Of a DNA stretch of 64,000 nt, positions 13,928 to 49,774 are shown piece by piece. A program made the position numbers and the translations under genes. Under the pieces are notes generated by a model, which was not told the DNA's origin, did not search any database, and saw nothing but the letters and a program-made list of their open reading frames with translations. How positions within the stretch are numbered: position 1 is the first letter of the stretch; each line of letters opens with the position of its first letter. The stretch covers positions 62,001 through 126,000 of the forward strand of contig NZ_AOCN01000022.1 in assembly GCF_000350525.1 (NCBI RefSeq). The letters are read 5' to 3'. The stretch is from Leucobacter salsicius M1-8 (GTDB taxonomy: Bacteria; Actinomycetota; Actinomycetes; Actinomycetales; Microbacteriaceae).

Positions 13928-13943
13928 GTCAACATGCGTAGAA
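13928..13943. promoter_or_regulatory. TTCTAC-N4-GTTGAC operator copy (site 1)
   Basis: Read on the minus strand the site is TTCTACGCATGTTGAC, identical over all 16 bp to the copy at 49759-49774. On the plus strand the half-site supplies TAGAAT (13939-13944), a good -10 box for the divergent importer operon starting at 14073. It is one of six related sites, all in divergent promoter regions. Confidence 0.7.
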
Positions 13944-14072
13944 TGAAACGCGACGACACGTGGAAGTGCCGTCCATCTCGCACTCGAACAGCGATCGTTC
14001 GGCGCATGGTGGCACTGACACAACGGAGTCCTCTACCTACACCCCCATGTCCTGGAACCGAGAGAAGAAGAC

Positions 14073-15611
14073 ATGAAGAAAACACTTACGGGCCTCGCGG
14101 CACTCGCCGCGGCCGCGCTCGCTTTGACCGCCTGCTCGGGCGGAGGTGGAAACGCCGCGGGTGGCGAAGAAGCCACCTCGAGCGCAAAGCCACTCAGCAT
14201 CGGAAACTTCCTAGACGTCACGTCTTGGGACCCCTCGCTTGCTGACGTCGGATTCGACGGGCCCTACCTGTCGGCGATCTATGACCCGCTGCTCGCCATC
14301 GACGAGAAGGGCGAACCGCAGCCCGCCCTCGCAACCGACTGGGAGGTGTCAGACGACTTCAAGAAGATCACTATGAACCTGCGCACGGACGCGAAGTTCT
14401 CGGACGGGACGGCGTTCGACGCCGACGTAGCAGTCAAGAGCCTGGACTACCTCAAGGCCGGCGTGCGTTCGCAGGAGGCCTACCTCAATGTTGAGAGCTT
14501 CACTGCCACGGACGAAGACACCATCGAGATCAATCTCACCCAGCGCGACGACACGATCCTGTACTTCATGGCGCTCGGTCGCAGCTACATGATGGCGCCC
14601 GACGCGATCGCCGCGGGCACGCTCGCGGAGACCCCCGTGGGCTCGGGGCCGTACACGCTGGGCGACTCGTCGATTCCCGGTGCCGAGTACCACTTCGACA
14701 AGGTCGCCGACCACTGGGCTGCCGCAGACTTCCCGTTTGACCCGCTGACCGTCAGCCCGCTGTCTGACGCTACGGCCATGCTCAACGGCATGGAAAGCGG
14801 CCAGTTCCAGCTGATCTATGGCGACAAGACGGCTGCCGACATGGCACCAGACTACGACTGGAACGTCTCGAGCGGCCTGTCCATGTGGGTGGGGCTGCAG
14901 TTTGCGGATCGCGTCGGGCAGAGCGAAATGGGCAAGCCGATCGGCGACCTTAAGGTGCGCCAGGCGCTCAACTACGCGTTCAACGGCCAGGAAATGGTCG
15001 ACACGATCGCGCAGGGTGTGGGTGAAGGCACGAACCAGGTGTTCCCCATCGACACCCCGGGCTATGTCGCGTCGCTGACCGACCTGTACGCTCCGAACAT
15101 GGACAAGGCGAAGGCACTGCTCGCAGAAGCCGGATACGCCGATGGTTTTGACATCACCATGCCCATGTCGCCGCAGTTCCAGCCGTGGCAGGCCATCGTC
15201 GAGCAGACGCTCGCCGACCTGAAGATCAAGGTCACCTGGAAGGAAACCGACTTCATGCAGTACATGTCGGTCGCCCCCGAGTACCCGATGTTTGTCGGCG
15301 TGATTGCGATGGACTCGAACCCCATGGCCACGATCGAACGTCAGATCTCGAAGCCCCAGTGGTACAACCCGAACCCGGGCATCGAGGCCTTCCCTGACGT
15401 TGCCGCGCAGCTCGAGATCGTCAATACCGCGGCGCCGGGCGACGAGCAGACCAAAGCGATCGAGAAGCTCAACGAGCTGGTCACCCAGAACGCATTCTTC
15501 TCGGTGTGGTCGCAGTCAACCAACATGTACATCTCGACCGCTGACTTCACGGTCACACCGGTTACGGGCATGATGTTCCCGACGCTGCGCCAGGTCGAAC
15601 TGGCGAGCTAG
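14073..15611 (+). CDS. Peptide/nickel-type ABC transporter solute-binding lipoprotein
   Basis: The 512-residue precursor has a lipoprotein signal peptide ending LALTAC near residue 24, then a family 5 extracytoplasmic binding domain (WDPSLADVGFDGPYLSAIYDPL at the start; LKVRQALNYAFNGQEMV in the middle). It should deliver its ligand to the permeases encoded after the hairpin at 15617-15647. The divergent position to the hpa operon suggests an aromatic or aromatic-conjugate ligand, but this is inference. GAGAGAAGAAG precedes the ATG. Confidence 0.9.
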   Translation: MKKTLTGLAALAAAALALTACSGGGGNAAGGEEATSSAKPLSIGNFLDVTSWDPSLADVGFDGPYLSAIYDPLLAIDEKGEPQPALATDWEVSDDFKKITMNLRTDAKFSDGTAFDADVAVKSLDYLKAGVRSQEAYLNVESFTATDEDTIEINLTQRDDTILYFMALGRSYMMAPDAIAAGTLAETPVGSGPYTLGDSSIPGAEYHFDKVADHWAAADFPFDPLTVSPLSDATAMLNGMESGQFQLIYGDKTAADMAPDYDWNVSSGLSMWVGLQFADRVGQSEMGKPIGDLKVRQALNYAFNGQEMVDTIAQGVGEGTNQVFPIDTPGYVASLTDLYAPNMDKAKALLAEAGYADGFDITMPMSPQFQPWQAIVEQTLADLKIKVTWKETDFMQYMSVAPEYPMFVGVIAMDSNPMATIERQISKPQWYNPNPGIEAFPDVAAQLEIVNTAAPGDEQTKAIEKLNELVTQNAFFSVWSQSTNMYISTADFTVTPVTGMMFPTLRQVELAS

Positions 15612-15616
15612 TAGTA

Positions 15617-15647
15617 GTGGGGATCCCCGACTCTCGGGGATCCCCAC
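15617..15647 (+). terminator. Intercistronic hairpin after the second solute-binding gene
   Basis: A perfect 14-bp stem (15617-15630 with 15634-15647) with loop CTC starts 5 bp after the stop codon and is followed by TTCTTCATT. It mirrors the hairpin at 3512-3541 and probably raises binding-protein over permease expression by partial termination or 3'-end protection. Confidence 0.65.
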
Positions 15648-15684
15648 TTCTTCATTCCACCTCTGATCCGACACCGGAGTCTTG

Positions 15685-16626
15685 ATGATCACCTTCACCC
15701 TCAAACGGTTGCTCTCGGGAGTGATCCTGCTGTTCGTCGTGGCGACTGGCACGTTCTTCCTCGCGCACGCCGCGATCCCCGATCCTACCCTCGGTCTTCT
15801 GGGGAGCGCCGCGACTCCGGAGTCGCAGGCGCTACTTGCCCAGAAGATTGGCACCGACCGACCGATCCTTGTGCAGTTCGGCGAGTGGTTCATGAATTTG
15901 CTGCGGGGCGACTTCGGCGACTCGTGGAAGAACTTTCAGCCCGTGGGTAGTCAGCTTGCCCTGAAGCTCCCCGTGACGCTCTCCGTAGTGACCGTCGCGA
16001 TCCTGCTGTCGGCCCTGCTCGGTGCCGTGTTCGGGGTGGCAGCTGGCCTGCGCCCGGGCACCTGGATCGACAAGCTCGTGAAAGCGAGCTCGGTGATTCT
16101 CTTCGCACTGCCCGGGTTCTGGGTGGCACTCGTGCTCGTCATGACCTTTGCGGTGCAGCTGCGATGGTTTCCAGCCGTCGGATATGTTCCCCCCACCGAG
16201 TCCCTGGGCGGTTGGCTACAGTCCATCGCCCTCCCCGCCATCGCGCTGGCGCTCGGCGCCGTCGTGATGATCGCAGAACAGCTGCGCAACGCCATCATCC
16301 AAGCGGACAATCAGGACTACGTGCGCACACTGCGTAGCCGCGGGCTCCCCGCGCCTCGCATCGTGATGCACCTGCTGCGCAACGCCGCACCGGCCTCGCT
16401 CACGATTCTCGCGCTCATGTTCGTGGGGCTGCTCTCGGGCGCCATCATTGTTGAGCAGATCTTCGCGCTGCCCGGTATCGGCCCGATGACACAGTCTTCA
16501 TCGCAAAACGGCGATATTCCGATGCTGCTCGGGATCACCGTCATCACCGTGATCTTCGTCGTCATCATTAACTTCCTGCTCGACGTGTTGCTCGGCTGGA
16601 TCAACCCGAAGGCGCGTGTGAAATGA
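15685..16626 (+). CDS. ABC transporter permease, DppB-like
   Basis: A 313-residue inner-membrane subunit with about six membrane segments and the BPD_transp_1 domain; the ATPase-coupling loop is YVRTLRSRGLPAPRIVMHLL. The ATG at 15685 is preferred to the TTG one codon earlier because CCGGAG is 5 bp upstream of it. Its end overlaps the next gene by 4 bp. It forms half of the channel for the substrate bound by the preceding lipoprotein. Confidence 0.9.
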   Translation: MITFTLKRLLSGVILLFVVATGTFFLAHAAIPDPTLGLLGSAATPESQALLAQKIGTDRPILVQFGEWFMNLLRGDFGDSWKNFQPVGSQLALKLPVTLSVVTVAILLSALLGAVFGVAAGLRPGTWIDKLVKASSVILFALPGFWVALVLVMTFAVQLRWFPAVGYVPPTESLGGWLQSIALPAIALALGAVVMIAEQLRNAIIQADNQDYVRTLRSRGLPAPRIVMHLLRNAAPASLTILALMFVGLLSGAIIVEQIFALPGIGPMTQSSSQNGDIPMLLGITVITVIFVVIINFLLDVLLGWINPKARVK

Positions 16627-18452
16627 CCTCACCACTCACCGACAACATTGACTCTCGGGCCGTCAAGCGCGGCTCGCTGTTCGTTCGCCTGCTGCGCAAG
16701 CCCGCGGGAGCGATCTCGCTGGGAGTGCTGCTGCTCGTCGTGCTCGTGGGGGTCCTCGCCCCCTGGATTGCACCCTACGACCCCAACTTCGTCGACCTTG
16801 CCCTCACCCGGGCCGCACCCAGCGCTGAGCACTGGATGGGCGGCGACACGACCGGTCGCGACGTCGCCAGCCGCCTTATTTGGGGCGCTCAGATCACCCT
16901 CTGGGGTGCGCTCGTGGCGATCGTCACTTCGCTGGTGATCGGCGTCCCGTCGGGCCTCGCCGCCGGTTACTACGGAGGCAAGTTCGATCGCGTCGCCACC
17001 TGGGTGAGCGACGGGCTCCAGTCGATTCCCGGCATGATCATCCTGCTCATCGTGGGAGCGAACACCGGCAACGACTTCAACATTCTGATGGTGACGGTCG
17101 GTGTCTTCATGGCCCCCGGCTACTTCAGGCTCACCCGCTCGACCGTGCTTGCGGTGCGCGGCGAAGCCTACATCGACGCGGCACGCGTGTCGGGGCTCTC
17201 TGACGCGCGCATCATGACGCGCCACGTGATCAAGCAGGTCACCGCCCCCATCGTGATCCAGTCGGCCCTCACCGCCGGCATGGCCATGGGCATGCAGGCC
17301 GGCCTCCAGTTTCTCGGCATCGGCGGCGGCACCACCCCCGGTTGGGGCGCTGCCATGAACGAGGGCTTCCGCGTCATGCGCACGGACCCGCTGCTGCTGC
17401 TCTGGCCGTCGCTCGCGCTCGGCATCACGATCGCGGCGCTCGCGATCCTCGGTTCGACCCTCGCCGACGTGATCAGCGTCAAGACGGTTGCGCTGTCCCC
17501 GCGAGAGCGCCGCAACATCGCAAAGCAGAATGCGCAGAAGCTGCCCATCGGGGCGACCACGACCACGACGGGAACCATCTCGGTCGCCGCGGTCGACTCG
17601 GCAGTGCGGCTCGAGAATCTGCGCGTCAACTACGAAACCCCGGCGGGCCCGATCGAGGTCGTGCACGGCATTACGCTCGACGTGGCCCCCGGGGAGGTGT
17701 TGGGAATTGTAGGCGAATCCGGATCGGGTAAGTCGCAGACGGTGTTCTCGATGCTCGACCTGTTGCCCAAGTCGGGCTACTACACCGCTGACGCGATCTG
17801 GATCGGCGGTGAGGACGTGACGACCCTGTCGAAGCGGGACCGTGCCCAGCTCCTCGGTCACGAAATCGGCTACATTCCGCAGGAGCCGATGTCGAACCTC
17901 GACCCCTCGTACTCGATCGGCTACCAGCTGATTGAACCGCTGCGTGCCGTGCACGGCATGTCCAAGGCGGAGGCCCGCGAGCGAGCGCTCGCCATGCTGG
18001 ATCGGGTCGGCATCGTCGACCCCGAGCGCGTCATGAAGTCGTACCCGCACGAACTCTCGGGGGGCATGGCACAGCGCGTGCTGATCGCCGGTGCGATCGC
18101 AGGTAAGCCCTCGGTGCTCGTCGCCGACGAGCCCACGACCGCCCTCGACGTGACGGTGCAGGCCGAGGTGCTCGAACTGCTGCGCGAGCTGCAGACCGAG
18201 TACGAAATGGCGCTCATCATCGTCACCCACAACTTCGGCGTAGTGGCAGACATCTGCGACCGCGTCGTCGTGATGCGATCCGGATCGATCGTCGAGATTG
18301 ATGACGTCGGCCCAATCTTCGCGGACCCCGAGAACGATTACACCCGCGAGCTGATCGCGGCATCGCTCGATGGCGCGGCGAGCCGGGCCGAGCTCGACGC
18401 CGCAGCCGCACGCAACATCGCGGACGCCCGCGCGAAGGAGGAAGTCGCATGA
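16623..18452 (+). CDS. Fused ABC permease-ATPase (DppC-DppD)
   Basis: One 609-residue chain joins a complete DppC-type permease (residues 1 to about 295; APWIAPYDPNFVD, HWMGGDTTGRDVASRLIWG and coupling loop IDAARVSGLSDARIMTRHV) to a complete ABC ATPase (from about residue 325; Walker [10 protein letters not shown], signature LSGGMAQR, Walker [13 protein letters not shown]). The linker is short and threonine-rich. The fusion ties channel and one ATP site covalently. The start overlaps the DppB-like gene by 4 bp and the end overlaps the second ATPase by 4 bp, so stoichiometry is fixed by coupling. Confidence 0.92.
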   Translation: MTSPLTDNIDSRAVKRGSLFVRLLRKPAGAISLGVLLLVVLVGVLAPWIAPYDPNFVDLALTRAAPSAEHWMGGDTTGRDVASRLIWGAQITLWGALVAIVTSLVIGVPSGLAAGYYGGKFDRVATWVSDGLQSIPGMIILLIVGANTGNDFNILMVTVGVFMAPGYFRLTRSTVLAVRGEAYIDAARVSGLSDARIMTRHVIKQVTAPIVIQSALTAGMAMGMQAGLQFLGIGGGTTPGWGAAMNEGFRVMRTDPLLLLWPSLALGITIAALAILGSTLADVISVKTVALSPRERRNIAKQNAQKLPIGATTTTTGTISVAAVDSAVRLENLRVNYETPAGPIEVVHGITLDVAPGEVLGIVGESGSGKSQTVFSMLDLLPKSGYYTADAIWIGGEDVTTLSKRDRAQLLGHEIGYIPQEPMSNLDPSYSIGYQLIEPLRAVHGMSKAEARERALAMLDRVGIVDPERVMKSYPHELSGGMAQRVLIAGAIAGKPSVLVADEPTTALDVTVQAEVLELLRELQTEYEMALIIVTHNFGVVADICDRVVVMRSGSIVEIDDVGPIFADPENDYTRELIAASLDGAASRAELDAAAARNIADARAKEEVA

Positions 18453-19288
18453 CCGCGAACGAACCGCTGCTGCGGGCCGAGAACGTGATCGTCGAGTACG
18501 GCACGAAGCGTAATCCGAACCGTGTGCTGCACGAGGTGTCGCTCGAGGTGGGTGCCGGCGAGTGCGTCGGGCTGGTCGGGGAGTCCGGATCGGGCAAATC
18601 CACGCTCGGCAAGGCCGTGCTCGGCCTCGTGCCGGTCGCGGGCGGCAAGATCACGTTCGACGGGCGTGATATCACGCACCTGAAGGGCCAGGCGCGGCGG
18701 GATCTAGCGTCGGATATTCAGGTCGTGTTTCAGGACCCGTACGGCTCACTTAATCCAAAGATGACCGTGGGCGAGATCCTGTCGGAGCCGCTGTCGACCG
18801 CTGGGACCGACCGAGCCACGGCGCGCGGGATCGTGGGCGAGATGCTCGAGCGCGTGAGCATGCCCGCGAGTGTGATCGACCGGTACCCGAGCGAGTTTTC
18901 GGGCGGGCAGCGGCAGCGGATCGCGATCGCGCGGGCGCTCGTGCGCAAGCCTCGGCTCATCATCTGTGATGAGCCGGTGAGCGCGCTCGACCTCACGACG
19001 CAGGCCACGGTGCTTGACCTGCTGATCGACCTGCAGCGCGAGACGGGGGTGTCGTACCTGTTCGTGTCGCACGACCTGGGCGTGGTGCGCAGCATCTGCC
19101 ACCGCGTGGCCGTGATGTACCGCGGCAACCTGGTCGAGGTCGGAGATGGCGACGCGGTAACGCGTAGCCCGCAGCATCCGTACAGCCAGCGGCTGCTCGC
19201 GGCGTCGCCGGTGGCCGACCCGATCTTGCAGGCTGCGCGTCGTGACGAGTGGCTGGCGCTGCGGGAGCGGCAGGCTGCTTCGGCGTAG
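18449..19288 (+). CDS. Peptide-type ABC ATPase, DppF-like
   Basis: The 279-residue protein has Walker [10 protein letters not shown] near residue 45, Q-loop VVFQDPYGSLNPK, signature FSGGQRQR, Walker B LIICDEPVSALD and switch histidine FVSHDLG, followed by the oligopeptide C-terminal tail HPYSQRLLAASP. It provides the second ATP site, partnering the ATPase half of the upstream fusion. Last gene of the operon; the palindromic repeat at 19318-19390 follows and could terminate transcription. Confidence 0.92.
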   Translation: MTANEPLLRAENVIVEYGTKRNPNRVLHEVSLEVGAGECVGLVGESGSGKSTLGKAVLGLVPVAGGKITFDGRDITHLKGQARRDLASDIQVVFQDPYGSLNPKMTVGEILSEPLSTAGTDRATARGIVGEMLERVSMPASVIDRYPSEFSGGQRQRIAIARALVRKPRLIICDEPVSALDLTTQATVLDLLIDLQRETGVSYLFVSHDLGVVRSICHRVAVMYRGNLVEVGDGDAVTRSPQHPYSQRLLAASPVADPILQAARRDEWLALRERQAASA

Positions 19289-20839: not shown

Positions 20840-21190
20840 CTACACCGTGGTGAACACCTTGCTCGCGATGCGCCACACGCCATCGCGGCGCACGAGCCCG
20901 AAGTGGTTGCGGAAGTTCGCGCCCAGGAAGTTCTGCTCGTCGAGGATTGCGTGTGCAACCTCTCCGGTGACCTCGATGCCGTGGATCTCGGAGCCGTAGT
21001 CGGCGCCCGCGGGCTCGGCCGCCGCGATCACATTGGCGGCAAAATCTGCCCCCGACTGCGTCACGTAGGTCGGGCCGAGATAGCCCCACATGATCGCGTT
21101 CTCGTCGAACGCGTCGGCGACCACGGCAGCGTCAGCGGCCTTGCATCCGTCAACATACTTCTGCACGGCCGCGCGTACCTGATCTTGCAT
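20840..21190 (-). CDS. NTF2-like (SnoaL/DUF4440) small protein
   Basis: A 116-residue protein of the NTF2-like cone-shaped fold: an N-terminal helix pair (VRAAVQKYVDGCKAADAAVVADAF), then a curved sheet ending DGVWRIASKVF. Family members are small enzymes (isomerases, cyclases, dehydratases) or binding proteins; no catalytic pair can be assigned here. It is the last gene of a leftward operon of oxidoreductases and esterases, so a helper or isomerase role in the same catabolic route is likely. AAAGGAACC precedes the ATG. Confidence 0.75.
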   Translation of the reverse strand: MQDQVRAAVQKYVDGCKAADAAVVADAFDENAIMWGYLGPTYVTQSGADFAANVIAAAEPAGADYGSEIHGIEVTGEVAHAILDEQNFLGANFRNHFGLVRRDGVWRIASKVFTTV

Positions 21191-21212
21191 AGTGGGTTCC
21201 TTTCGAGTGTGG

Positions 21213-21242
21213 ATCCTGCGACTCGCTCCGCTCGCGCAGGAT
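21213..21242. repeat. Small intergenic hairpin (REP-like)
   Basis: ATCCTGCG and CGCAGGAT form an 8-bp stem around a 14-nt loop between the aldehyde dehydrogenase stop and the NTF2-like gene. The look is that of a short REP element; it may modulate read-through. Confidence 0.45.
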
Positions 21243-21269
21243 GACGAGGGGGTGCAGCCTTTGTGCGTG

Positions 21270-22682
21270 CTAGCCGCTGATGACCTGCGGCTCGGCGACG
21301 GATTTGAGGCCCATCACGCCAAACTCGCGGCCGTACCCCGACTGCTTCGCGCCGCCGAAGGGGATCATCGGGTGGAGGCCACCGTGCGAGTTGATCCACA
21401 CGGTGCCAGCCTCGAGGCGGGCCGCGACCTTGCGGGCGGCGTCGCGATCCGCGGACCACACCGACGCACCGAGGCCGACCTCGAGTGCATTCGCGAGGCG
21501 CACGGCCTCATCGACGTCCGTGTAGCGAATGATCGGCAGAGCGGGGCCAAACTGCTCCTCGAGCACCAGATCCTGCTGCGGGTCGATATCGGCGACCAGC
21601 GTGGTGGGGTAGAAATTGCCTGCGGCTTCGCGATCCGGATCGCCACCGAGCACGACCCGGGCACCCGAGGCCTTAGCCGACTCGACGAGCCGGTCGACGA
21701 TGTCGAACTGGGGCCGGTTCTGCAGCGGGCCGAGCACGTTCTGCTCCTCGAGGCCCACACCCATCGGCACCGCAGCCGCGACCTTGGCAAGCTCCGAGAC
21801 CACGGCGTCGTAGACCGAATCGTGCACGTAGAGGCGCTTGAGCGCCGCGCAGGTCTGGCCCGTGTTGATGAATGCGCCCCAGAACAGGTCCTCGGCGATC
21901 GCGGCGGGGTCGACGTCGGGCAGCACGATGCCGGCGTCATTGCCGCCGAGCTCGAGCGTAAGACGCGTGACGTTGGGTGCCGAGGCCTCGATGATGCGCT
22001 TGCCCACGGGGGTTGAACCCGTGAACATGATCTTCGAGATCTTGGGGCTACGCGTGAGCGCGTCGCCCACGGTGCTGCCGGGGCCGGGCACGATGTTGAG
22101 CACGCCCTCGGGGAGCACCTCGTTCATAACGGCCACGAGTGCGAGCACCGACAGCGTGGTGGTCTCTGCGGGCTTGATGACGACGGTGTTGCCCATGCGC
22201 AGCGACGGCGCAATCTGCCAGATCGAGATCATCATGGGCCAGTTCCACGGCGAGATCGCGCCGACCACGCCGAGCGGGCGGTAGTGCATCTCGGCGTAAC
22301 CCGACTCGTCGTCGACGATTACCTCGACGGGCAGCGGGGTGTCTGCGGCGGCCCGCGTCCAAGCGACGCATCCGCCCACCTCGAAGCGGGCGTTGGGGCC
22401 GTTGAGCGGCTTGCCCTGCTCGCGCGAGAGCAGCTCGGCGAGCGGCTCAGCCGCAGCCTCAATCGCGTCTGCGGCCTTGTGCAGGTACGCGATGCGCTCC
22501 TCATCGGAGAGCGCGGCCCACGAAGGCTGCGTCGCCTCGGCCTTGTCGATTGCGGCCTCGAGCGTCGCGACGTCGTTGACCGGGGCCTCGGCAATGAGCT
22601 CGCCCGTGGCCGGATCGAAGACCTCGCGGGTCTCGCCGCTCTGCGCCGAAACTGTGGCCAGCAAGCTGTCGTATGTATTCAT
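21270..22682 (-). CDS. NAD(P)-dependent aldehyde dehydrogenase
   Basis: A 470-residue cytoplasmic enzyme with the full ALDH set: Asn147 (PWNWP), Lys170 (VIKPAE), Glu244 (LELGGN) and nucleophile Cys278 (NTGQTCAALKR). It belongs to the broad-substrate group and cannot be assigned a substrate. Its operon also has an alcohol dehydrogenase and an aldo/keto reductase, so a path alcohol to aldehyde to acid is plausible. It could also oxidise the aldehyde made by the amine oxidase encoded at 45.7 kb. The ATG at 22682 has GGAGGAACC directly upstream; a longer arginine-rich reading frame was rejected. Confidence 0.9.
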   Translation of the reverse strand: MNTYDSLLATVSAQSGETREVFDPATGELIAEAPVNDVATLEAAIDKAEATQPSWAALSDEERIAYLHKAADAIEAAAEPLAELLSREQGKPLNGPNARFEVGGCVAWTRAAADTPLPVEVIVDDESGYAEMHYRPLGVVGAISPWNWPMMISIWQIAPSLRMGNTVVIKPAETTTLSVLALVAVMNEVLPEGVLNIVPGPGSTVGDALTRSPKISKIMFTGSTPVGKRIIEASAPNVTRLTLELGGNDAGIVLPDVDPAAIAEDLFWGAFINTGQTCAALKRLYVHDSVYDAVVSELAKVAAAVPMGVGLEEQNVLGPLQNRPQFDIVDRLVESAKASGARVVLGGDPDREAAGNFYPTTLVADIDPQQDLVLEEQFGPALPIIRYTDVDEAVRLANALEVGLGASVWSADRDAARKVAARLEAGTVWINSHGGLHPMIPFGGAKQSGYGREFGVMGLKSVAEPQVISG

Positions 22683-22749
22683 GGTTCCTCCACTTTGAGA
22701 CCGGTCAGTGTCTTCAGCGTAAACCGGTCGGGGCGATTGGGGGTTGTCT

Positions 22750-24099
22750 TCAGGGGACCTGCGTTTGCGTTTGCGTGACCGTTTCGGTGCGCACTGCGCT
22801 GGACACTGTGCTCGACGCTGCGCTTGGCGCGGCACTCTGCGCGGCGAGCTGGCGCGGCAGTACGCGCCGGATCGCGAAGATCGCGATGCACGCGGCCAGG
22901 GTCGCTCCGGCCGCGATCGTGCTCGCCATGGTGAGCGTGGATGTTCCAAACCCGGCCGAGACGAGGGGCGCGGCCACGGCCCCGGCCGTGAACATACCCA
23001 TGCCGAGCAAAGCCGAGGCCGTTCCCGCACGGGAACCGTGCGCCCCAAGGGCGAGGGTCGTGCCGTTGGGGCCGCCGAGCCCGGCCGCTCCGATAAAGAT
23101 TGCCAGCAGCGCGATGAACGCGATCGTGTGGGCGCCCAGCAGCGTAGCGACGAGCAGCAGGATCGCGGCGATGGCGCCCGCGATCTGCCCGGTCATATAC
23201 ATGCGTGCGGTGCCGAGGCGCCGCACGAACAGCCGGCTCAGCTGCGCGCCACCGAGTTGCGCGAGCGCGTTCATCGCGAAAATGAGGCTGAACAGCTGCG
23301 GGGTGAGCCCCAACTGATCCTGCAGCACGAAGCTCGACATCGACAGGTAGGAGAAGAACGCGACGCCGCCCAGGCACGACGCGGTCATGAACGCGACGAA
23401 CAGCGGGTCGCGCATGACTGTGCCAATGTGACCGGCGGTGGTGCGCACCACACCACCCGAATGCCGCCCGTCGTGCAGCGTTTCTCGGAGCCCGAGCGTG
23501 GCCACCGGCACGAGCACCGCTCCCACTCCGGCGAGCACGAAGAAGATGCCGCGCCAGTCCATGAATCGAGCGAGCTGCCCGCCGATCACGGGCGCAATGA
23601 TCGGCGTAAGCGAGGTCACCAGCGCGAGCAGCGAGAGCATGCGCGAGAGCTCGACGCCCTCAAACAGGTCGCGCGCGACGGCCATGCTGATGACGACTCC
23701 CGCCGCACCGGCGAGGCCCTGGAAGAATCGGGCCACCAGTAACACCTCGATCGTGGGCGCCATCGCGCACGCGGCAGACAGCACCGCGAACAGCACCACC
23801 CCGGTCACGAGCGGCTTTTTGCACCCATACCGATCGGACAGCGGCCCCGCGATGAGCTGCCCGACGCCCAGCCCGATCATGCACACCGACATCGTCGCCT
23901 GCGCGAGCGCGTCAGTGGTGCCGAGCGTACGCGCGAGCTGTGGCAGCTGCGGCAAGTACAGGTCCATCGATAGCGGCCCGAAGGCCTCGAGCAGCCCGAG
24001 CACGAGCGTGATGCGCAGGAGGCCCATGGGGCGCGCGGATCCGGATCCGGGCCGCACTGCACCGGCTGCCCGGCGCGTGCGCCCGCGACGGACGCTCAC
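22750..24099 (-). CDS. MFS transporter, Bcr/CflA drug-resistance type (DHA1)
   Basis: About twelve membrane segments. Segment 1 shows LEAFGPLSMDLYLPQLPQL, the Bcr/CflA hallmark, and the loop after segment 2 has GPLSDRYGCKKPL (MFS motif A); RFFQGLAGAAGVVISMAVARDL is motif C-like. Such proteins export drugs, amino acids or sulfonamides by proton antiport. The GTG at 24099 overlaps the upstream stop (GTGA) and is preferred; an ATG at 24027 just before segment 1 is also possible. In this operon it may expel toxic aldehydes, acids or pathway overflow. Confidence 0.8.
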   Translation of the reverse strand: MSVRRGRTRRAAGAVRPGSGSARPMGLLRITLVLGLLEAFGPLSMDLYLPQLPQLARTLGTTDALAQATMSVCMIGLGVGQLIAGPLSDRYGCKKPLVTGVVLFAVLSAACAMAPTIEVLLVARFFQGLAGAAGVVISMAVARDLFEGVELSRMLSLLALVTSLTPIIAPVIGGQLARFMDWRGIFFVLAGVGAVLVPVATLGLRETLHDGRHSGGVVRTTAGHIGTVMRDPLFVAFMTASCLGGVAFFSYLSMSSFVLQDQLGLTPQLFSLIFAMNALAQLGGAQLSRLFVRRLGTARMYMTGQIAGAIAAILLLVATLLGAHTIAFIALLAIFIGAAGLGGPNGTTLALGAHGSRAGTASALLGMGMFTAGAVAAPLVSAGFGTSTLTMASTIAAGATLAACIAIFAIRRVLPRQLAAQSAAPSAASSTVSSAVRTETVTQTQTQVP

Positions 24100-25124
24100 A
24101 GCGCGAGGATCCGGCGCCACCGGCTGTCGCGCGCAGTGTTTGCGGCCTGTGACACGACAGCGTCGGGGGAGAAGCCGTTGAACCCGTGATAGCCGCCAGC
24201 CCAGACGTGCAGCTCGGCTGATCCGCCCGCCGCCCAGATGCGGCTCGCATACGCTACGGTCTCGTCGCGAAACACGTCAGCGGCCCCCACCTCGAAGTAT
24301 GCGGGGGCGAGCCCCGCAAGGTCGGTCGCATGGATCGGCGCTTGGTTGGCGGTGACCCGGTCGGTGCCGCGGTCGGCGCCGACGTATGCGTCCCAACCGG
24401 TGTCGTTGTTGTTGCGGTCCCAGGCCCCGATCCCGTCGTACTGCCACGCCGAAACCGTGTCGTTGCGGTCGTTGATCATGGGGCAGACGACGAGCTGGCC
24501 GGCGAGCGGGACCTCGCCCCGGTCTCGGGCCATGAGCGCCACCGCGGCCGAGAGTCCGCCGCCCGCTGAAGCTCCCGTGACCACGAGGCGCGCTGGGTCG
24601 ATGCCCAGCTCTGCGGCGTGCTCGGCCATCCACACGAGCGCCGCGTAGCAGTCCTCGGCAGCGGCCGGGGCCCGGTGCTCGGGCGCGAGACGGTACTCGA
24701 CCGCGACGCCCACGACCCCGTAGCGTTCAGCGAGATCGATCAGGTCGCCGGTCGCAAAAAACCTGGTGCCGAGCACGTAACCGCCGCCGTGAATGCTGAG
24801 CACGCCCGGGGCCTGCGGTTTCTGATCCGGATCAAAGCTCGCGGGCCGCACGATCGTGATCTCGACCTCGGGAGCGCCCGCGGGCCCCGGGATCACGCGG
24901 TGTTCCCAGGTTACGGCGCGACCGGCCGCCTGCGCCTCCATGGGCGGAATGACGGTGAGAAAGTGGGCGCGATTCTCGAGAATCGTGTGCTCCCGCAGCG
25001 GGATGCGCTCGACGAGATCCATGAAGAAGGCGAGGCCCGCTTCGAGCTCGGAGTCGTAGGGCACGGGGGTCGGCCGCGGCTCGGGGGCCACGGGGCGGAA
25101 CGGGGTGATGGCCTGATCAGGCAT
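24096..25124 (-). CDS. Alpha/beta hydrolase, hormone-sensitive-lipase family (esterase 1)
   Basis: This 342-residue enzyme carries the HSL oxyanion motif HGGGYV, the nucleophile elbow GASAGG and C-terminal catalytic His in GYHGFN, with acid in the AADVFRDE region. It should cleave short-chain carboxyl esters in the cytoplasm. It overlaps the paralogous esterase gene upstream by 8 bp and the MFS gene downstream by 4 bp, showing tight coupling. The tandem probably arose by duplication; the two have diverged outside the catalytic motifs. Confidence 0.88.
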   Translation of the reverse strand: MPDQAITPFRPVAPEPRPTPVPYDSELEAGLAFFMDLVERIPLREHTILENRAHFLTVIPPMEAQAAGRAVTWEHRVIPGPAGAPEVEITIVRPASFDPDQKPQAPGVLSIHGGGYVLGTRFFATGDLIDLAERYGVVGVAVEYRLAPEHRAPAAAEDCYAALVWMAEHAAELGIDPARLVVTGASAGGGLSAAVALMARDRGEVPLAGQLVVCPMINDRNDTVSAWQYDGIGAWDRNNNDTGWDAYVGADRGTDRVTANQAPIHATDLAGLAPAYFEVGAADVFRDETVAYASRIWAAGGSAELHVWAGGYHGFNGFSPDAVVSQAANTARDSRWRRILAL

Positions 25125-26184: not shown

Positions 26185-26186
26185 GA

Positions 26187-27155: not shown

Positions 27156-27199
27156 CGTTGTCCTCTCACGGGGTGGAATGGTTGGGGTGAGTCAGCTGG

Positions 27200-37306: not shown

Positions 37307-38896
37307 ATGGCGGTCTCAGAATTTGAACAGGCACCTCGTAGCGTCATTGTGGTGGGGGCTGGCTCTGCCGGCTCGGTAGTGGCCCGACGCCTCGCTGACG
37401 CGGGCGTGCAGGTGACGGTGCTCGAGGGGGGCGGCGAGGACACGAACCCCGCGATTCACGACCCGAGCCGCATGGGGGAGCTGTGGCACAGCGCAGACGA
37501 CTGGGACTACTACACGGTGCCCCAGCGTGGCGCCGCTGACCGTCGGCTCCACCTGCCCCGCGGCAAGGTGCTTGGCGGTTCTCACTCGCTCAACGCCATG
37601 ATTTGGGTGCGCTGCGTGCCGCAGGACTTCGACCACTGGGCTGCCCTTGGTAACGACGGCTGGGCCTGGGATGACGTGCTGCCCGTCTACCGCGCGATCG
37701 AGAACTTCCACGGTGCGGGCGACCCCGAGCTGCACGGCGAGGACGGCCTGCTCGACGTTACGAGCGAGTACGAGCTCGCCCCGATTCAGCAGGCAATCAT
37801 CGATGCTGCCGTGGAAGAGGGGCTCGCGCACAACCTCGACTACAACGGTGCCGAGATCGAGGGTGTCTCGCAGCAGCAGGTCAACGTGCGGGACGGCGCG
37901 CGCTTCAACACGTACATGGCGTACCTCAAGCCCGTGCGCGATCGCGTGCGGGTGGAGGTCGGCTGCCATGTGCACGAGCTGATCTTTGCCGACGAGGCCG
38001 CGCACGCTGGTGCCGGATCGGTGGCGGGCGACGCCGATCGCCCGCGGGTCATCGGCGTGCGATACGAGCAGGACGGCGAGCTGCGTGAGCTGCTCGCGGA
38101 CGAGGTGATTCTCGCGGCGGGCGCCATTGACTCACCGCGTGTGCTGCTGCGATCCGGCATCGGCCCCGCCGATGAGCTCGCCGAGCACGGCATCGCCTCG
38201 CGCGTCGACTTGCCCGGGGTGGGCAAGAATCTGCACGACCACGTGCTTGCGCCCGTGATCTTCGAAACCGAGACTCCCGTGGGCCCGCCGCTGCCCGGCG
38301 CCTCCGTCACCCAGACGCACCTGTTTTGGAAGAGTCGGGAGGAGCTGGATCGGCCCGATACCCAGCCGATCAATTTCTCGGTGCCGATGTACGGGGAATC
38401 ACTCGAGCCGCGCTCAGGCGATGGCTTCTCGCTCATGGCCGGGCTCGTGACGCCGCAGGCGCGCGGCTCAATCAAGCTGTCGGGGCCCGCCGCCACCGAC
38501 CCGCTGCTCGTCGATATCGATGCGCTGGGTCATGATGACGACGTTGCCTCGCTCGTGGCGTCGGTGCAGCAGTGTCGCCGCATCGGCCAGCAGCCGGCCC
38601 TGGCAGGGCAGTGGGGCGCGACCGAGGTCTACCCCGGACCGGAAGTCGGCGATGGTGACGACCTGGTCGAGTACGTGCGCGACACTGTGGCGACGTACCA
38701 CCACCAGGTCGGCACCTGCAAGATGGGCGTCGACGACCTCGCAGTGGTCTCGCCGAGGCTCGCGGTGCACGGCGTCGACGGGCTCCGAGTGATCGACGCT
38801 TCGGTGATGCCGCGCGTGACCACAGGTAATACAAACGCGCCGGCCGTGCTCATTGGAGAGCTGGGCGCGAAGCTTGTGCTTGCGGGGGAGCGCTAG
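37307..38896 (+). CDS. GMC-family FAD-dependent oxidoreductase (choline dehydrogenase-like)
   Basis: A 529-residue flavoprotein: the N-terminal dinucleotide motif VVGAGSAGSVVARRL, GMC signature 1 (LPRGKVLGGSHSLNAMIWVR), signature 2 (AAGAIDSPRVLLRSGIGP), and the C-terminal active-site pair in TYHHQVGTCKMG and TTGNTNAPAVLIGE. It oxidises an alcohol to the aldehyde or ketone with FAD. The position of the catalytic His (YHHQVGTCK) and the final Asn (NTNAP) are kept, so it should be active. Substrate unknown; the divergent TetR and operator place it in the same regulon. A GAAAGGAACG ribosome site precedes the ATG. Confidence 0.9.
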   Translation: MAVSEFEQAPRSVIVVGAGSAGSVVARRLADAGVQVTVLEGGGEDTNPAIHDPSRMGELWHSADDWDYYTVPQRGAADRRLHLPRGKVLGGSHSLNAMIWVRCVPQDFDHWAALGNDGWAWDDVLPVYRAIENFHGAGDPELHGEDGLLDVTSEYELAPIQQAIIDAAVEEGLAHNLDYNGAEIEGVSQQQVNVRDGARFNTYMAYLKPVRDRVRVEVGCHVHELIFADEAAHAGAGSVAGDADRPRVIGVRYEQDGELRELLADEVILAAGAIDSPRVLLRSGIGPADELAEHGIASRVDLPGVGKNLHDHVLAPVIFETETPVGPPLPGASVTQTHLFWKSREELDRPDTQPINFSVPMYGESLEPRSGDGFSLMAGLVTPQARGSIKLSGPAATDPLLVDIDALGHDDDVASLVASVQQCRRIGQQPALAGQWGATEVYPGPEVGDGDDLVEYVRDTVATYHHQVGTCKMGVDDLAVVSPRLAVHGVDGLRVIDASVMPRVTTGNTNAPAVLIGELGAKLVLAGER

Positions 38897-39006: not shown

Positions 39007-39624
39007 CTAACCCGTGGCCTGCATGCGAGAGCGCTCGGTGCCGAGCCCGGCGATCATTGCGTCCAGACTGCTGGATAGGTCATCGTCTGATGCGGCGTCG
39101 GGGACGAGAACCGCAAGCATTTGCCACCCGGCGTTGTACACGGACACTCGGTTGACTGCCTCCTCAGTGTCAACGCCCGAGTGGAGTTCGCCATCGGCCC
39201 GCGCCTCCTCGATGAAGCGGCGAATGAGGCCGCGGCGGCGCGTGATGTTGGCATCGTGCACGTCCCAGAGCCCAGCGTCCTGTGCCGCACGGTCCCAGAA
39301 TGACAGGACCAGGCGAGATTTGTCGGCCCCGATGTCTTCAAAGGGAAGCAGCTCGCGTGACAAAATGCGCAGCGCAGCGAGGCCACGGAGACTGCCTACG
39401 CGCGTGATGATGCGCTCGTGTGAGGCATTGAAGACCTGCAAAAATGCGGCGGTCAACAGGCTTTGTTTGTCTGGAAAGTATCGGGCGATCGCGCCGTGGG
39501 CGTACCCGGCCTCGGCTGCGATACCGCGCATCGTGACGCGGTCGAAGCCGTCGCGCACAATGATCTGCGTAACGGCGTCGGCAATATGCGCACGGCGCTC
39601 TTCGTGGTCGACAATTTTTGGCAT
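39007..39624 (-). CDS. TetR-family regulator of the sulfate-ester operon
   Basis: A 205-residue TetR protein with start MPKIVDHEERR, very like the other TetR at 36.4 kb (MPKIIDHDQRR), and helix-turn-helix VTMRGIAAEAGYAHGAIARYF. The ligand domain differs. It is divergent from the ABC-sulfatase operon; the 199-bp gap has three copies of TCACC-N4-GGTGA, likely its binding sites. Those sites are unrelated to the TTCTAC dyad, so the two TetR proteins appear to have separate regulons. AAGGGAGCCC precedes the ATG. Confidence 0.88.
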   Translation of the reverse strand: MPKIVDHEERRAHIADAVTQIIVRDGFDRVTMRGIAAEAGYAHGAIARYFPDKQSLLTAAFLQVFNASHERIITRVGSLRGLAALRILSRELLPFEDIGADKSRLVLSFWDRAAQDAGLWDVHDANITRRRGLIRRFIEEARADGELHSGVDTEEAVNRVSVYNAGWQMLAVLVPDAASDDDLSSSLDAMIAGLGTERSRMQATG

Positions 39625-39683: not shown

Positions 39684-39711
39684 CGTTTCGTCACCAGTTG
39701 GTGACGAAACG
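39684..39711. promoter_or_regulatory. Operator O1 of the sulfate-ester operon: perfect 12-bp inverted repeat
   Basis: CGTTTCGTCACC and GGTGACGAAACG surround AGTT. The inner part TCACC-N4-GGTGA recurs twice downstream. It lies 60 bp from the TetR start codon, suited to autoregulation and repression of the divergent operon. Confidence 0.75.
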
Positions 39712-39732
39712 TTATCGGCATGTTATCTTTGA

Positions 39733-39746
39733 TCACCAGTTGGAGA
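39733..39746. promoter_or_regulatory. Operator O2 (TCACC-AGTT-GGAGA)
   Basis: Second copy of the dyad with one mismatch, centred 42 bp from O1. A possible extended -10 (TGTTATCTT, 39721-39729) lies just upstream. Confidence 0.6.
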
Positions 39747-39759
39747 TTAACCTTGTTAA

Positions 39760-39773
39760 TCACCGGACGGTGA
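39760..39773. promoter_or_regulatory. Operator O3 (TCACC-GGAC-GGTGA)
   Basis: Third copy with perfect 5-bp arms, centred 27 bp from O2 and about 57 bp before the binding-protein start. Confidence 0.65.
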
Positions 39774-43246: not shown

Positions 43247-43247
43247 C

Positions 43248-45654: not shown

Positions 45655-47703
45655 CTACTTACCGCAGGCGCAGCCGGGGTTGCCGCAGCGGCAGGCGTCG
45701 CCCGCGCAGCAGCCACAGCCGCCGCCCGCGCAGCACGCGCCCGTCATGCCGTCGCGCGACACAGCACCGTCGGGCAGGTTCATCGCGGGGTTCTCGTCGA
45801 GGAATCCGTGGGGCTTGAACAGGAACCCCGAGTAGTCGACGGGCATGATGGGCCAGTCCTCGGGGCGCGGCACGTGGGTCGGGCCAAACACGTGCCAGAG
45901 CACGATGTCCTCGCCGTCGAGTGAGCGGTTCGCTTGTGTCCAGGCCGGCAGCCCCGCGCCGCCCGGGTTGGCGTTCGGAAAGTCGCCGGCGGGAAACCGC
46001 TCGTGTGCCGCGTACTGTGTGGCCCACAGATGCTCGGTCGCAAACTCGGCGCGGCTGTGCACGGTCGATTCGGGCTGCGCCATGAGCGTGGGCTGGCCCT
46101 GGGGCAGTAGGCGGAACGCGGTGGGGTGGCCGAGCCTGTTCGTGCGTTCAGCGCTGCGCACCTCCCAGACACGGCCGGCCGCGGGGTTGGCCCGGCGCCG
46201 CGCCTCGGACTCGCTCGTGAGCTGGCGCGAGTTCCAGGTGAAGGCGTTGCCGTGCGGGTTCTCGGGTCCGATCGGAATCCCGGCGACCTCGACCTCGTGC
46301 AGCGTGTTCGCCTCGCCGTCGAGCGCGGTGTCGAGGCGCGCGCAGAAGAGGTGTTGGTGCACCGGCGCGAAGATGCCGGGAGCGATCTCGGGCGCGTGAG
46401 GGTTGGCCGATCCGGGCATCCCCGCGCTCGCAAACACGATTCCCGTGGCCTTCGCCTCGAGCTGGATCGTGCCATCGAGATAGAAGTACCAGAAGAATCC
46501 GTAATCGTAGTTGCCGATGGTCGAGAAGTACGAGACCACGAGGCGGCGCGACCGGCGCACCTCGGTGTGACCGTCGAGATCCGTGTGCTTCCACAGGATC
46601 CCGTAGTCCTCCTCGTGCATGCAGACGACCTGCGGAATCTTGACGGGGTGGCCGTGATCGTCGGGCACGAAGCCATCGAAGTAGTGGATCACCCCGAGGC
46701 AGTCGCAGCCGAGGCTGAGCGTGTTGGCATTCTTGCCGAGCAGGTACTCGCCCGCGTCGAAGTAGCTGATCCAGAATCGGCCCGGGGCAGTATCGCCGTA
46801 GGGCACGACCATCTCGGGGACGCTGGCGCGGTGCAGCACCTCGCGCTCCTCATCGCCATCGCGAAAGCTGACCTGGTTGAGCACGAGCCCCTCGCGCTGG
46901 TTGAACCCGACACGAAAGCTCCAGTTCTCCCACGTCACAAGCGATCCGTCGACCTCGAAACTCGGGCCCTCGGGCTGTGTGATCTCGATGGGTTTGAGGC
47001 TCGTGCGGGCGGGGCCCTGGGCCGCGGCTGAGTAGTTTCCGTGGCCTTTGGGCACTGGCACGTCGCCCTCGTCCTCGACTCGGATTACGGTGCCGCTCGA
47101 GAGGTCGATGTGCACAATTAGCCCCTCGACCGGGTGCGCCCACGGGCTATCGCTCGGGTCGTCGCGCAAGAAGGTGAGGGAACGCACGACGCGTTTGTTG
47201 GCCTCGTCTGCGCGGCCAAAGAAGCCGGGCGCCAGGGGTGCGCAGAACGCGAGCTCCATGCGGTCGGCGAGCCCGCGGCGGTGCATGGCGGCCTGCCAGC
47301 CCTCGGAGGCCTTCGCGATGCTCGCGGCCCGGTCGTACTCCTCGAAGATGTACTGCGGTTGGCCCTCGACCGCGGTGTCGATGTCGCGGATGCTCTCGAC
47401 CTCCCCAGCTCCGTGCACGGCGACCACGGCGACCCGGGAGGTGCCGTCGGACGTGTCGAGCAGCACGATCTCGAGGCGGCGTTCGATCGGGTCCTCGGGC
47501 GCCCACTGGGCGAGCCATTCCTTACTGGGATCGAGCGGCAGCAGCTGAGCCACGCGCACAGCTTCGCCCATGTGGCCTGCACCGACGAGGAGCTCCCGGG
47601 CGCGCGCGATCTCGCTGGCGATCAGCGGATCGAGCGGGTGCGCCACGAAGGTCGGCTCGGTGACCCGTTGGCCGTGGGTATGACTAGTGCGATCGGATGA
47701 CAT
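45655..47703 (-). CDS. Copper-containing primary-amine oxidase with cysteine-rich C-terminal tail
   Basis: A 682-residue quinoprotein. Tyr399 in TIGNYDYG becomes the topaquinone cofactor, Asp316 (SYFDAGEY) is the catalytic base, and His449, His451 (VHQHLF) and His610 (GPTHVPR) bind copper. It converts a primary amine such as tyramine, dopamine or phenylethylamine to an aldehyde, ammonia and H2O2. No signal peptide is seen, so it is probably cytoplasmic, as in Arthrobacter. Residues 654-682 are an unusual glycine-rich tail with nine cysteines (657, 658, 663, 665, 666, 671, 673, 678, 680), resembling a metallothionein. The ATG at 47703 follows AAGGGAGCC. Confidence 0.93.
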   Translation of the reverse strand: MSSDRTSHTHGQRVTEPTFVAHPLDPLIASEIARARELLVGAGHMGEAVRVAQLLPLDPSKEWLAQWAPEDPIERRLEIVLLDTSDGTSRVAVVAVHGAGEVESIRDIDTAVEGQPQYIFEEYDRAASIAKASEGWQAAMHRRGLADRMELAFCAPLAPGFFGRADEANKRVVRSLTFLRDDPSDSPWAHPVEGLIVHIDLSSGTVIRVEDEGDVPVPKGHGNYSAAAQGPARTSLKPIEITQPEGPSFEVDGSLVTWENWSFRVGFNQREGLVLNQVSFRDGDEEREVLHRASVPEMVVPYGDTAPGRFWISYFDAGEYLLGKNANTLSLGCDCLGVIHYFDGFVPDDHGHPVKIPQVVCMHEEDYGILWKHTDLDGHTEVRRSRRLVVSYFSTIGNYDYGFFWYFYLDGTIQLEAKATGIVFASAGMPGSANPHAPEIAPGIFAPVHQHLFCARLDTALDGEANTLHEVEVAGIPIGPENPHGNAFTWNSRQLTSESEARRRANPAAGRVWEVRSAERTNRLGHPTAFRLLPQGQPTLMAQPESTVHSRAEFATEHLWATQYAAHERFPAGDFPNANPGGAGLPAWTQANRSLDGEDIVLWHVFGPTHVPRPEDWPIMPVDYSGFLFKPHGFLDENPAMNLPDGAVSRDGMTGACCAGGGCGCCAGDACRCGNPGCACGK

Positions 47704-47775
47704 GGTGGCTCCCTTGCCCCTCGAAGTGTGACCGTGCGGTGTGTTCCTCACGGTAGGTGATTGTGTCGTCGAACG

Positions 47776-48084
47776 CTACAGCGGCAGCCGCTCCACGGGG
47801 AACGTGACCACGGTCGCCCCGCCCGTCGCATAGTTCGGCACATCAGCCTCGACGGCCTGGCCCTCGGGCGACGACATCGCGGCGCCAAGCGCCGCCTCGT
47901 CGGCAAACGTCGCCTCAAACACCGCAAAGAACGGGGCAGCGCCGGGCGCCCCGATCCCGATCGAGAACGAAATGCCTTGCACGCCGGGCAGCTTCGCGCA
48001 CAGCGGGAGGTGCGTCTCGCGGTAGTACGCCTCGAACACGGTGCGATCGGTGGGCTCGGGGTAGAGCACGATGAGCTTGTGCAT
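47776..48084 (-). CDS. EthD-family small protein
   Basis: A 102-residue ferredoxin-like alpha+beta barrel protein: MHKLIVLYPEPTDRTVFEAYYRETHLPL is the EthD pattern, including the Y-x3-HLPL region. EthD proteins accompany ring- and ether-degrading oxygenases; many act as small isomerases or lyases in dimers. It lies 11 bp after the amidohydrolase stop, so the two are cotranscribed, and 72 bp upstream of the amine oxidase, probably in the same operon. AAGGAAGG precedes the ATG. Confidence 0.82.
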   Translation of the reverse strand: MHKLIVLYPEPTDRTVFEAYYRETHLPLCAKLPGVQGISFSIGIGAPGAAPFFAVFEATFADEAALGAAMSSPEGQAVEADVPNYATGGATVVTFPVERLPL

Positions 48085-48095
48085 GCTGGCCTTCC

Positions 48096-49712
48096 TTATG
48101 CCTCAGGTGAATCATTGCGGGTGAACACGCAGCGGCCCGCAAACCAGGTCTCGTCGACTTGGGTTTGCACGAGTTCGTTTGCGGGGTGTGCGAACGGGTC
48201 GCGGTCGAGCACGACAAAGTCGGCGGACTTGCCTGCCTTGAGCGAGCCGGTTTCGTCGGCCAGGCCGATCGCCTCGGCGCCGCGAATGGTGAACGCCGCG
48301 ATGGCTTCTTCGAGGGTGATGGCCTGCTCAGGCCACAGGGTGCCCGGGTACTGGCCGCTCGGATCCTCGCGGGTGACGAGGCCGTGGATGCCCTCCCACG
48401 CGTTGGGGGAGGGGGAAACGGGCCAGTCCGAGCCGCCCGCCACGATCGCACCCGCGTCGATGAGTGCGCGGTTGGGCTGCATCTGATCGGCGCGCTCGCG
48501 CGGCAGCACCTCGCGGATCGCTTCGACGATGGGGCCGGGCACCCAGATGAAGGGTGAGATGTCTGCCGCGACGCCGAGCGGACCGAAGCGTGCGATGTCG
48601 TCGGGGTGCACGAACTGGCCGTGGGCGACCTGGTACCGCGGGGCGGTGAAGCCCTCGCCGCGAATCACCTCGACCGCGTTGAGCACCTCGTGCACTGACG
48701 CATCACCCGTGCAGTGGATCTTGGCCGAGAGTCCAGCCTGCGCCGTGCGACGCAGCCAGTCCACCAGCTCTTCGTGGGCCAGCAGGGTCGAGCCGTGAAA
48801 GTGATCACCGTGGACGTCATCGGGCAGATACGGTTCGAGAAACGCGCCGGTGCGCGTGGGCGGCACCCCGTCGAGGAAGATCTTCACGAAGTCGGGGCGG
48901 TGATGTGCGGTGCGAAAGCGCTCGCCGCCGAACACGAGGTCCTCGCCGATCTCGGAGAAGCCGAAGATCTCGTCGTTGATGAGCATTGAACTGACCACCC
49001 AGGCGTTCAAGCCCGTCGACTCGTCAACCGAACGCAGCGCTTCGAGGATGTGGGTGGAGACGCCGGCATCTTGAAACGCGGTAATGCCAAACGAGTTGAG
49101 GATCTCGACGCCGCGGCGGGCGGCGGCGCGCTCCTGGTCGGGGCTGAGAGCCGAGGCTGCGTCGCCGACGGCGGCAACGGGCAGACCCGCGGCTTCGAAG
49201 AGCACGCCGGTGGGGTGGTCGACGCCCGCGAGCTGCATGGCGCGGGTGGATGCCCAGCGGTTGTGGTGGGAATCGTCGATGAGCATGACGGGGCGCCCGC
49301 CCGCAGCCTCGTCGAGCCGCGCGAGCGCCTCGGGGGTATCGATGTCGCCCAGGCGGTCACTCATCCACGGCCCGCCTACCACCCATGCGTCTGCGGGGAG
49401 TCCCGCGGCGTAGCCGGTGACGGCCTCGATGATGCCGTCGAGCGTTGCGCCGATCGGCACCCGCAGCTCAAACAAGTCTTCCTTGCCCGCGAGGAAGTGG
49501 TGGTTGTGCACATCGACGAGGCCGGGCATCACGAACGCGCCATCGAGGTCTCGGATCACGGTGCCGGGGCCCGCGCCCGCCGATACCTCGGCGAACGTTC
49601 CGACTGCGGTGATGCGCCCGGATCGGGCCGCGAGCGCCTCGGCCCAGGGCTGCTCCGGATCGAGGGTGTAGATACGTGCGTTCGTGAGAATGATCTCGGG
49701 GTGGGTGGTCAA
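48096..49712 (-). CDS. Amidohydrolase family 3 (YtcJ-like) hydrolase
   Basis: The 538-residue third paralogue of the island. Motifs: LVDVHNHHF (metal histidines), FVKIFLDGVPPTRTGAF (bridging Lys), KIHCTGDASVHEVL, VAHGQFVHPDD and VAGGSDWPVSPSPNAWEGIHG. This is closer to canonical YtcJ/NfdA than the one at 28.5 kb. It heads the leftward operon amidohydrolase, EthD-like, amine oxidase, so it may release an amine from an N-acyl or N-formyl amide that is then oxidised; this is inference. The ATG is 46 bp from operator site 6. Confidence 0.87.
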   Translation of the reverse strand: MTTHPEIILTNARIYTLDPEQPWAEALAARSGRITAVGTFAEVSAGAGPGTVIRDLDGAFVMPGLVDVHNHHFLAGKEDLFELRVPIGATLDGIIEAVTGYAAGLPADAWVVGGPWMSDRLGDIDTPEALARLDEAAGGRPVMLIDDSHHNRWASTRAMQLAGVDHPTGVLFEAAGLPVAAVGDAASALSPDQERAAARRGVEILNSFGITAFQDAGVSTHILEALRSVDESTGLNAWVVSSMLINDEIFGFSEIGEDLVFGGERFRTAHHRPDFVKIFLDGVPPTRTGAFLEPYLPDDVHGDHFHGSTLLAHEELVDWLRRTAQAGLSAKIHCTGDASVHEVLNAVEVIRGEGFTAPRYQVAHGQFVHPDDIARFGPLGVAADISPFIWVPGPIVEAIREVLPRERADQMQPNRALIDAGAIVAGGSDWPVSPSPNAWEGIHGLVTREDPSGQYPGTLWPEQAITLEEAIAAFTIRGAEAIGLADETGSLKAGKSADFVVLDRDPFAHPANELVQTQVDETWFAGRCVFTRNDSPEA

Positions 49713-49758
49713 CGTTGACTCCGTTCGCTGGGCCGGGGTGTGTACCCCGCTCGTGTTA

Positions 49759-49774
49759 TTCTACGCATGTTGAC
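49759..49774. promoter_or_regulatory. TTCTAC-N4-GTTGAC operator copy (site 6)
   Basis: TTCTACGCATGTTGAC is identical to site 1 over 16 bp. On the minus strand it gives TAGAAT, a -10 candidate for the amidohydrolase-amine oxidase operon. It lies in the 230-bp gap to the divergent SDR gene. Confidence 0.7.

Follow-up and report, generated by a model that had tools for sequence, protein, structure and literature searches.

Occlusion is the usual mode of action of TetR-type regulators, and TetR-controlled catabolic regulons are already known as a kind; the TetR family also includes AmtR, the nitrogen regulator of Corynebacterium. The TetR1 set described here, from a 64,000-nucleotide stretch of Leucobacter salsicius M1-8 (contig NZ_AOCN01000022.1, positions 62,001 to 126,000; the whole stretch is called the window, G+C content 66.4%), is a probable new regulon of this kind. 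It consists of the TetR protein TetR1 and repeated copies of a dyad, TCTAC-N4-GTAGA with T-rich and A-rich flanks, that lie between divergent genes. TetR1 is very probably a dimeric repressor that would bind the extended dyad, occlude -10 boxes, respond to an aromatic inducer, control the flanking genes as one regulon and regulate its own gene.

An earlier note on this DNA had listed six such dyads across 36 kb, and all six are present in the sequence. The 16-bp core TTCTACNNNNGTWGAA occurs without mismatch at 28385-28400 and with one mismatch at 13928-13943 (minus strand), 31098-31113, 33033-33048 and 49759-49774. The core at 37120-37135 carries four mismatches, counted on the sequence, in keeping with the label "weak" that this site had been given. 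The list was incomplete, as a seventh site with two mismatches is found at 33079-33094, 46 bp from the 33033 site. The first and last sites had been called identical, and the same 16-mer does stand in both. The claim that every copy lies between divergent genes also holds by the open reading frame calls, provided that the amidohydrolase gene starts downstream of its first in-frame ATG (28348), probably at 28486, a start candidate preceded by GGAGGAGCG, which leaves the 28385 site intergenic. If at most one mismatch is allowed, the 3,185,418-base genome contains the dyad 7 times, with 5 copies inside this 36 kb, a clustering with a probability of ~4e-9 under uniform placement in a region that was itself picked for its sites. 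The whole-genome matrix scan suggested in the note was run with a 30-position model built from the six stronger sites, each entered in both orientations; at E <= 10 it returned nothing beyond these training sites, which match by construction, and its informative part is the absence of further matches, not the six recoveries.

TetR1 matches PF00440 with 49.2 bits (cutoff 24) and PF13977 with 37.8 bits (cutoff 27), and the TetR-family trait of a palindromic operator in the regulator's own and neighbouring promoters is seen for it at the level of sequence. Within the genus, with genome G049 left out of the counts, the model has matches at E <= 0.3 in all 26 genomes with a tetR1 orthologue (at least 49% identity; the window's own included) and, among the matches listed, in 2 of the 25 without one (Fisher p 1.5e-12, relatedness ignored). 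In the two exceptions, G038 and G050, the sites stand next to regulon genes, on contigs measuring 9,819 and 3,118 bases, and tetR1 may therefore fall in an assembly gap. In G013, G014, G037 and G044 the single TetR match is tetR1, and the motif is present, in G044 as weak matches only. TCTAC is found upstream of tetR1 in 26/26 same-genus loci and the full GTCTACANTGGAGGA in 16/26; these sites, mostly with T-rich and A-rich flanks, correspond to the weak site at 37120. For a wider comparison, 80 of 373 candidate homologues were collected, all carrying FANGALK, itself one of the two search patterns. After collapsing similar upstream regions, 48 non-redundant ones remained from 64 non-Leucobacter loci, and dyads were counted in them without the window matrix. 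CTAC-N4-GTAG ranked top for exact four-base halves (21/48; the runner-up reached 8, and 100 shuffles gave at most 7), and TCTAC-N4-GTAGA within two mismatches was present in 38/48 (shuffled mean 1.1, maximum 5). Homologues of another family with 40% and 39% identity (L033 in G094 and L034 in G112) are preceded by a near dyad, TTCTATAGTTGTAGAG. The proposal that the TetR protein at 36446-37042 is the regulator is thus strongly supported by conserved site positions, by co-occurrence with tetR1 and by a dyad recovered de novo before homologues in other genera.

The conserved positions were examined in 10 Leucobacter relatives picked for carrying tetR1 and not for their sites; the 383,598 bases around tetR1 contain 41 sites scoring at least 20, whereas 200 matrices with permuted columns averaged 0.2 and reached 12 at most. 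Eight loci were added; of these, L070 yielded no usable gene pair for any of the classes and L066 no alcohol dehydrogenase (ADH)/amidohydrolase pair. A site is present in the aldo/keto reductase 2 (AKR2)/SDR1 promoter region of 17/17 tetR1-bearing relatives (operator 3) and in the ADH/amidohydrolase region of 16/16 (operator 2), and the region between the methyltransferase-like and hydrolase genes holds at least one site in 17/17 and two in 14/17 (operators 4a and 4b). For operator 1, 16 stretches were fetched because the site model had matched in them; the site precedes the importer gene in 16/16, with the hpaH-like gene opposite in 14/16, and G018 and G051 likewise show the importer context.

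The note had also read TAGAAT in operators 1, 2 and 6 as a -10 box, and the hexamer is indeed there; operator 3 additionally contains a perfect TATAAT on the minus strand, and the tetR1 site contains TACAAT. The TATAAT toward SDR1 is kept in 17/17 relatives and the TAGAAT toward ADH in 16/16. Several operators thus overlap -10-like hexamers, so repression is likely to be steric, with a TetR dimer covering the -10 box. From the sites, their conservation, their co-occurrence with tetR1 and the dyad in homologue promoters, all read from sequence, we infer the remaining steps of binding, repression and induction. A TetR1 dimer would bind the T-rich flank, TCTAC-N4-GTAGA and the A-rich flank in intergenic regions common to divergent genes, placing a half-site over the -10 box (TAGAAT, TATAAT or TACAAT) and blocking RNA polymerase. 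A pathway substrate or intermediate, probably aromatic and of the phenylethylamine or hydroxyphenylacetate kind, would release TetR1, and the ring-cleavage operon for homoprotocatechuate would then be switched on together with the importer and the side-chain enzymes. By way of the weaker 37120 site, TetR1 would also hold down its own expression.

Several observations weigh against this model. Ten of the 48 homologue upstream regions (Rothia, Specibacter, Klugiella, an actinomycete bin, four Actinokineospora, a Bifidobacteriaceae bin and Microbacterium mangrovi) have no site at two or fewer mismatches, several of them with sites elsewhere in the same locus, and for exact five-base halves CTGGT-N6 leads (6/48), not TCTAC. 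Leucobacter sp. cx-328 has no site scoring at least 18 in its 20 kb, and Klugiella, with a homologue 54% identical, has a single site scoring 18.6. Outside the genus the relation to tetR1 is looser than within it: among the matches listed, five genomes match the model, G070, G072 and G129, in which a weaker TetR homologue is found, and G092 and G140, for which none is listed; G062, G071, G094, G112 and G113 have a homologue with no model match at E <= 0.3. Upstream of tetR1 in Leucobacter the dyad is imperfect, and part of its conservation may be owed to the -10 box. At the place of operator 6, the amine oxidase operon site (49759), no copy was found in the 6 Leucobacter relatives examined, three of which show weak remnants scoring 7.4 to 9.2; the single operator family and regulon of the earlier note are otherwise borne out by the conserved positions in tetR1-bearing relatives. 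The amine oxidase gene itself was seen in 2/10 Leucobacter relatives; in Agromyces italicus, among the 27 of 80 homologue loci examined, a site scoring 23 lies ~140 bases before an amine oxidase gene, so in other bacteria this operon may be among the targets. Further control may come from the GntR-FCD protein encoded within the hpa operon and from a FeaR-like protein of AraC type, and no good -35 box was seen, as judged by eye, before most of the -10-like hexamers.

Another regulator could bind the dyad, with tetR1 merely one of its targets, and TetR2, the GntR-FCD protein (about 9918-10700, within the hpa operon) and the FeaR-like protein (56755-57717) are all encoded nearby. This is improbable, as the dyad precedes tetR1 homologues in other genera and TetR2 has a dyad of its own, CACC-N4-GGTG, in 7/7 TetR2 intergenic regions, the window's included. 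G022 carries a TetR2-type gene (helix YAHGAIAR), no tetR1 and, among the matches listed, no motif match; on these two results TetR2 is rejected as the binder of the TCTAC dyad. A somewhat smaller chance, and a slim one, is given to TetR1 binding the sites in order to activate or tune transcription, which the poor -35 boxes would suit, whereas the overlap of half-sites with -10-like hexamers kept throughout the relatives fits occlusion. That the sites cluster by chance, owing to the A+T-richness of intergenic DNA in an otherwise G+C-rich genome, is a negligible prospect despite the lack of enrichment of looser matches, since operators 2, 3 and 4 recur in all 16 or 17 relatives and permuted matrices fail to match the count, and conserved positions rule it out for operators 1-4. 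At up to three mismatches the window has 22 matches against 19.7 expected, and at up to two the genome has 33+38, fewer than the 92+99 of a reversed control pattern. Strict matches (at most one mismatch) cluster in the 36 kb and loose ones are not enriched; the signal resides in the strict matches.

TetR2 and TetR1 may, somewhat short of an even chance, belong to an actinobacterial paralogous family with a fixed operator layout of five-base half-sites, a four-base spacer and A+T-rich flanks, in which the recognition helix sets the half-site as a natural recognition code and tetR1 governs a widely shared aromatic-compound regulon. When exact dyads were counted by recognition-helix class (L177 dropped, classes with fewer than 3 members not counted), the leading dyads were CTAC for ANG..K (26/93 non-redundant), CACC for AHG..A (4/6) and GACC for AHS..A (3/4, tied with GAGA-N8). 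A separate dyad ranking of the paralogues used a score that rewarded a T in first position, a C in fifth position and A+T-rich flanks. The pattern is a lead, because the AHG..A and AHS..A classes are small and mostly from the same genus. Other TetR paralogues in the relatives, with an AHS or THS helix (L164-L166, L169, L170 and L175), have upstream TCTAC/GGAGA or GACC-N4-GGTC dyads. With paralogues that share a layout of the operator yet differ in their half-sites, TetR-DNA specificity can be tested directly.

The genes next to the operators are given in Table 1; among the apparent targets are a ring-cleavage operon for homoprotocatechuate, an ABC importer and a number of dehydrogenase and hydrolase genes. 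The ring-cleavage proteins HpaD (430.7, cutoff 321.4) and HpaE (641.5, cutoff 638.35) pass curated cutoffs, and HpaH (349.1 vs 351.5) and HpaI (288.5 vs 368.8) are best or near-best matches below theirs. The dehydrogenase operon was called by orientation and spacing. The amine oxidase passes the primary-amine oxidase cutoff, and its listed solved relatives are phenylethylamine oxidases; together with a methyltransferase fold and AKR6D1, these solved relatives do not fix the substrate. MoaF and the FeaR-like protein are encoded at 55678-57717. The regulon would, with somewhat better than even probability, serve to take up and degrade a compound of the phenylethylamine or hydroxyphenylacetate type. 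The S-adenosylmethionine-binding glycine motif of the methyltransferase-like protein (33165-34136) looks altered in the alignment, and the protein may not be a methyltransferase. Elsewhere in the window, terminator-like inverted repeats, both containing CTACGGTTT, lie at 50878-50935, between SDR2 and an ABC ATPase gene, and at 19339-19388, after the importer operon; the open reading frame at 19453-20553 has an AbiEi-antitoxin-type N-terminal domain (PF13338), and the 17-base repeat GTCTACCTGTGTTTACG stands in two tandem copies at 29959-29992, after the amidohydrolase gene.

Table 1. Coordinates in the window of the proposed repressor, the operators, the TetR2 contrast case and the neighbouring genes.
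Feature	Position	Strand	Remark
TetR1, proposed repressor	36446..37042	-	TetR_N and TetR_C_6 above Pfam cutoffs
Operator 1	13921..13950	-	between hpaH-like gene (minus) and importer binding-protein gene (plus); TAGAAT on plus strand from 13939
Operator 2	28378..28407	+	flanked by dehydrogenase operon (minus) and amidohydrolase (plus), with TAGAAT oriented toward dehydrogenase
Operator 3	31091..31120	+	flanked by SDR1 (minus) and aldo/keto reductase 2 (plus), with TATAAT oriented toward SDR1
Operator 4a	33026..33055	+	between alpha/beta hydrolase (minus) and methyltransferase-like gene (plus)
Operator 4b	33072..33101	+	second site, same intergenic region as operator 4a; absent from the earlier list
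Operator 5 (weak)	37113..37142	+	flanked by tetR1 (minus) and GMC oxidoreductase (plus), with TACAAT oriented toward tetR1; score 15.2
Operator 6	49752..49781	+	flanked by amidohydrolase/EthD/amine oxidase operon (minus) and SDR2 (plus), with TAGAAT oriented toward amidohydrolase
TetR2, paralogue with different dyad	39007..39624	-	31% identical to TetR1; contrast case
Three TCACC-N4-GGTGA-type dyads upstream of TetR2	39691..39773		at 39691, 39733 (imperfect) and 39760
Homoprotocatechuate meta-cleavage operon	7182..13820	-	hpaD, hpaE, GntR-FCD regulator, hpaG-, hpaI- and hpaH-like genes
ABC importer operon	14073..19288	+	binding protein (SBP_bac_5), permease, permease-ATPase fusion, ATPase; BPD_transp_1 and ABC_tran
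Dehydrogenase operon	20840..28375	-	zinc ADH, aldo/keto reductase 1, two Abhydrolase_3 esterases, MFS, aldehyde dehydrogenase, lumazine-binding-like protein
Amidohydro_3 protein	28486..29916	+	start chosen by ribosome-binding site
SDR1	30277..31014	-	domain match
Aldo/keto reductase 2	31162..32160	+	AKR6D1 is the sole solved relative listed
Alpha/beta hydrolase	32275..32997	-	domain match
Methyltransferase-like gene and two phosphotriesterase-family genes	33165..36402	+	domain matches
GMC oxidoreductase	37307..38896	+	domain match; scores under choline dehydrogenase cutoffs
Amidohydro_3, EthD, copper amine oxidase operon	45655..49712	-	domain matches
SDR2	49943..50785	+	domain match

A narrow literature search found no paper with both "tetr" and the literal dyad string, and among the matches listed none of the titles and abstract beginnings points to a TetR1 regulon; for Leucobacter with homoprotocatechuate the sole match, by its title and abstract beginning, concerns house fly larvae. 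A TetR regulator not found described in the literature searched thereby gains a probable operator and a probable target set common to many Actinobacteria. Scattered genes for aromatic-compound uptake and breakdown appear to be switched jointly by one repressor through a repeated site, a pairing kept in many relatives, and enzymes without an assigned role (methyltransferase-like, phosphotriesterase-family and amidohydrolase) are tied to homoprotocatechuate cleavage.

When compared with BetI-like TetR regulators, TetR1 shares their domain architecture (TetR_N and TetR_C_6), their size and a site in its own promoter region, but scores below the NCBIfam BetI cutoffs (61.7 vs 118 and 58.7 vs 201.3), and the GMC oxidoreductase beside tetR1 likewise falls below those for choline dehydrogenase. 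The AmtR operator may resemble the TetR1 dyad in having T-rich and A-rich flanks around a CTAT-type dyad; its spacing is two bases wider, and the TetR1 targets look catabolic. The window shares an amine oxidase, MoaF and an AraC-type FeaR-like protein with the FeaR/MoaF systems of monoamine catabolism. The FeaR-like protein has AraC-type domains but lies below its NCBIfam cutoff (161.5 vs 199), and the element that links the genes of the window is instead a TetR-type dyad. Finally, HpaR, a MarR-type regulator of homoprotocatechuate genes, acts on the same ring-cleavage pathway but belongs to a different regulator family from TetR1.

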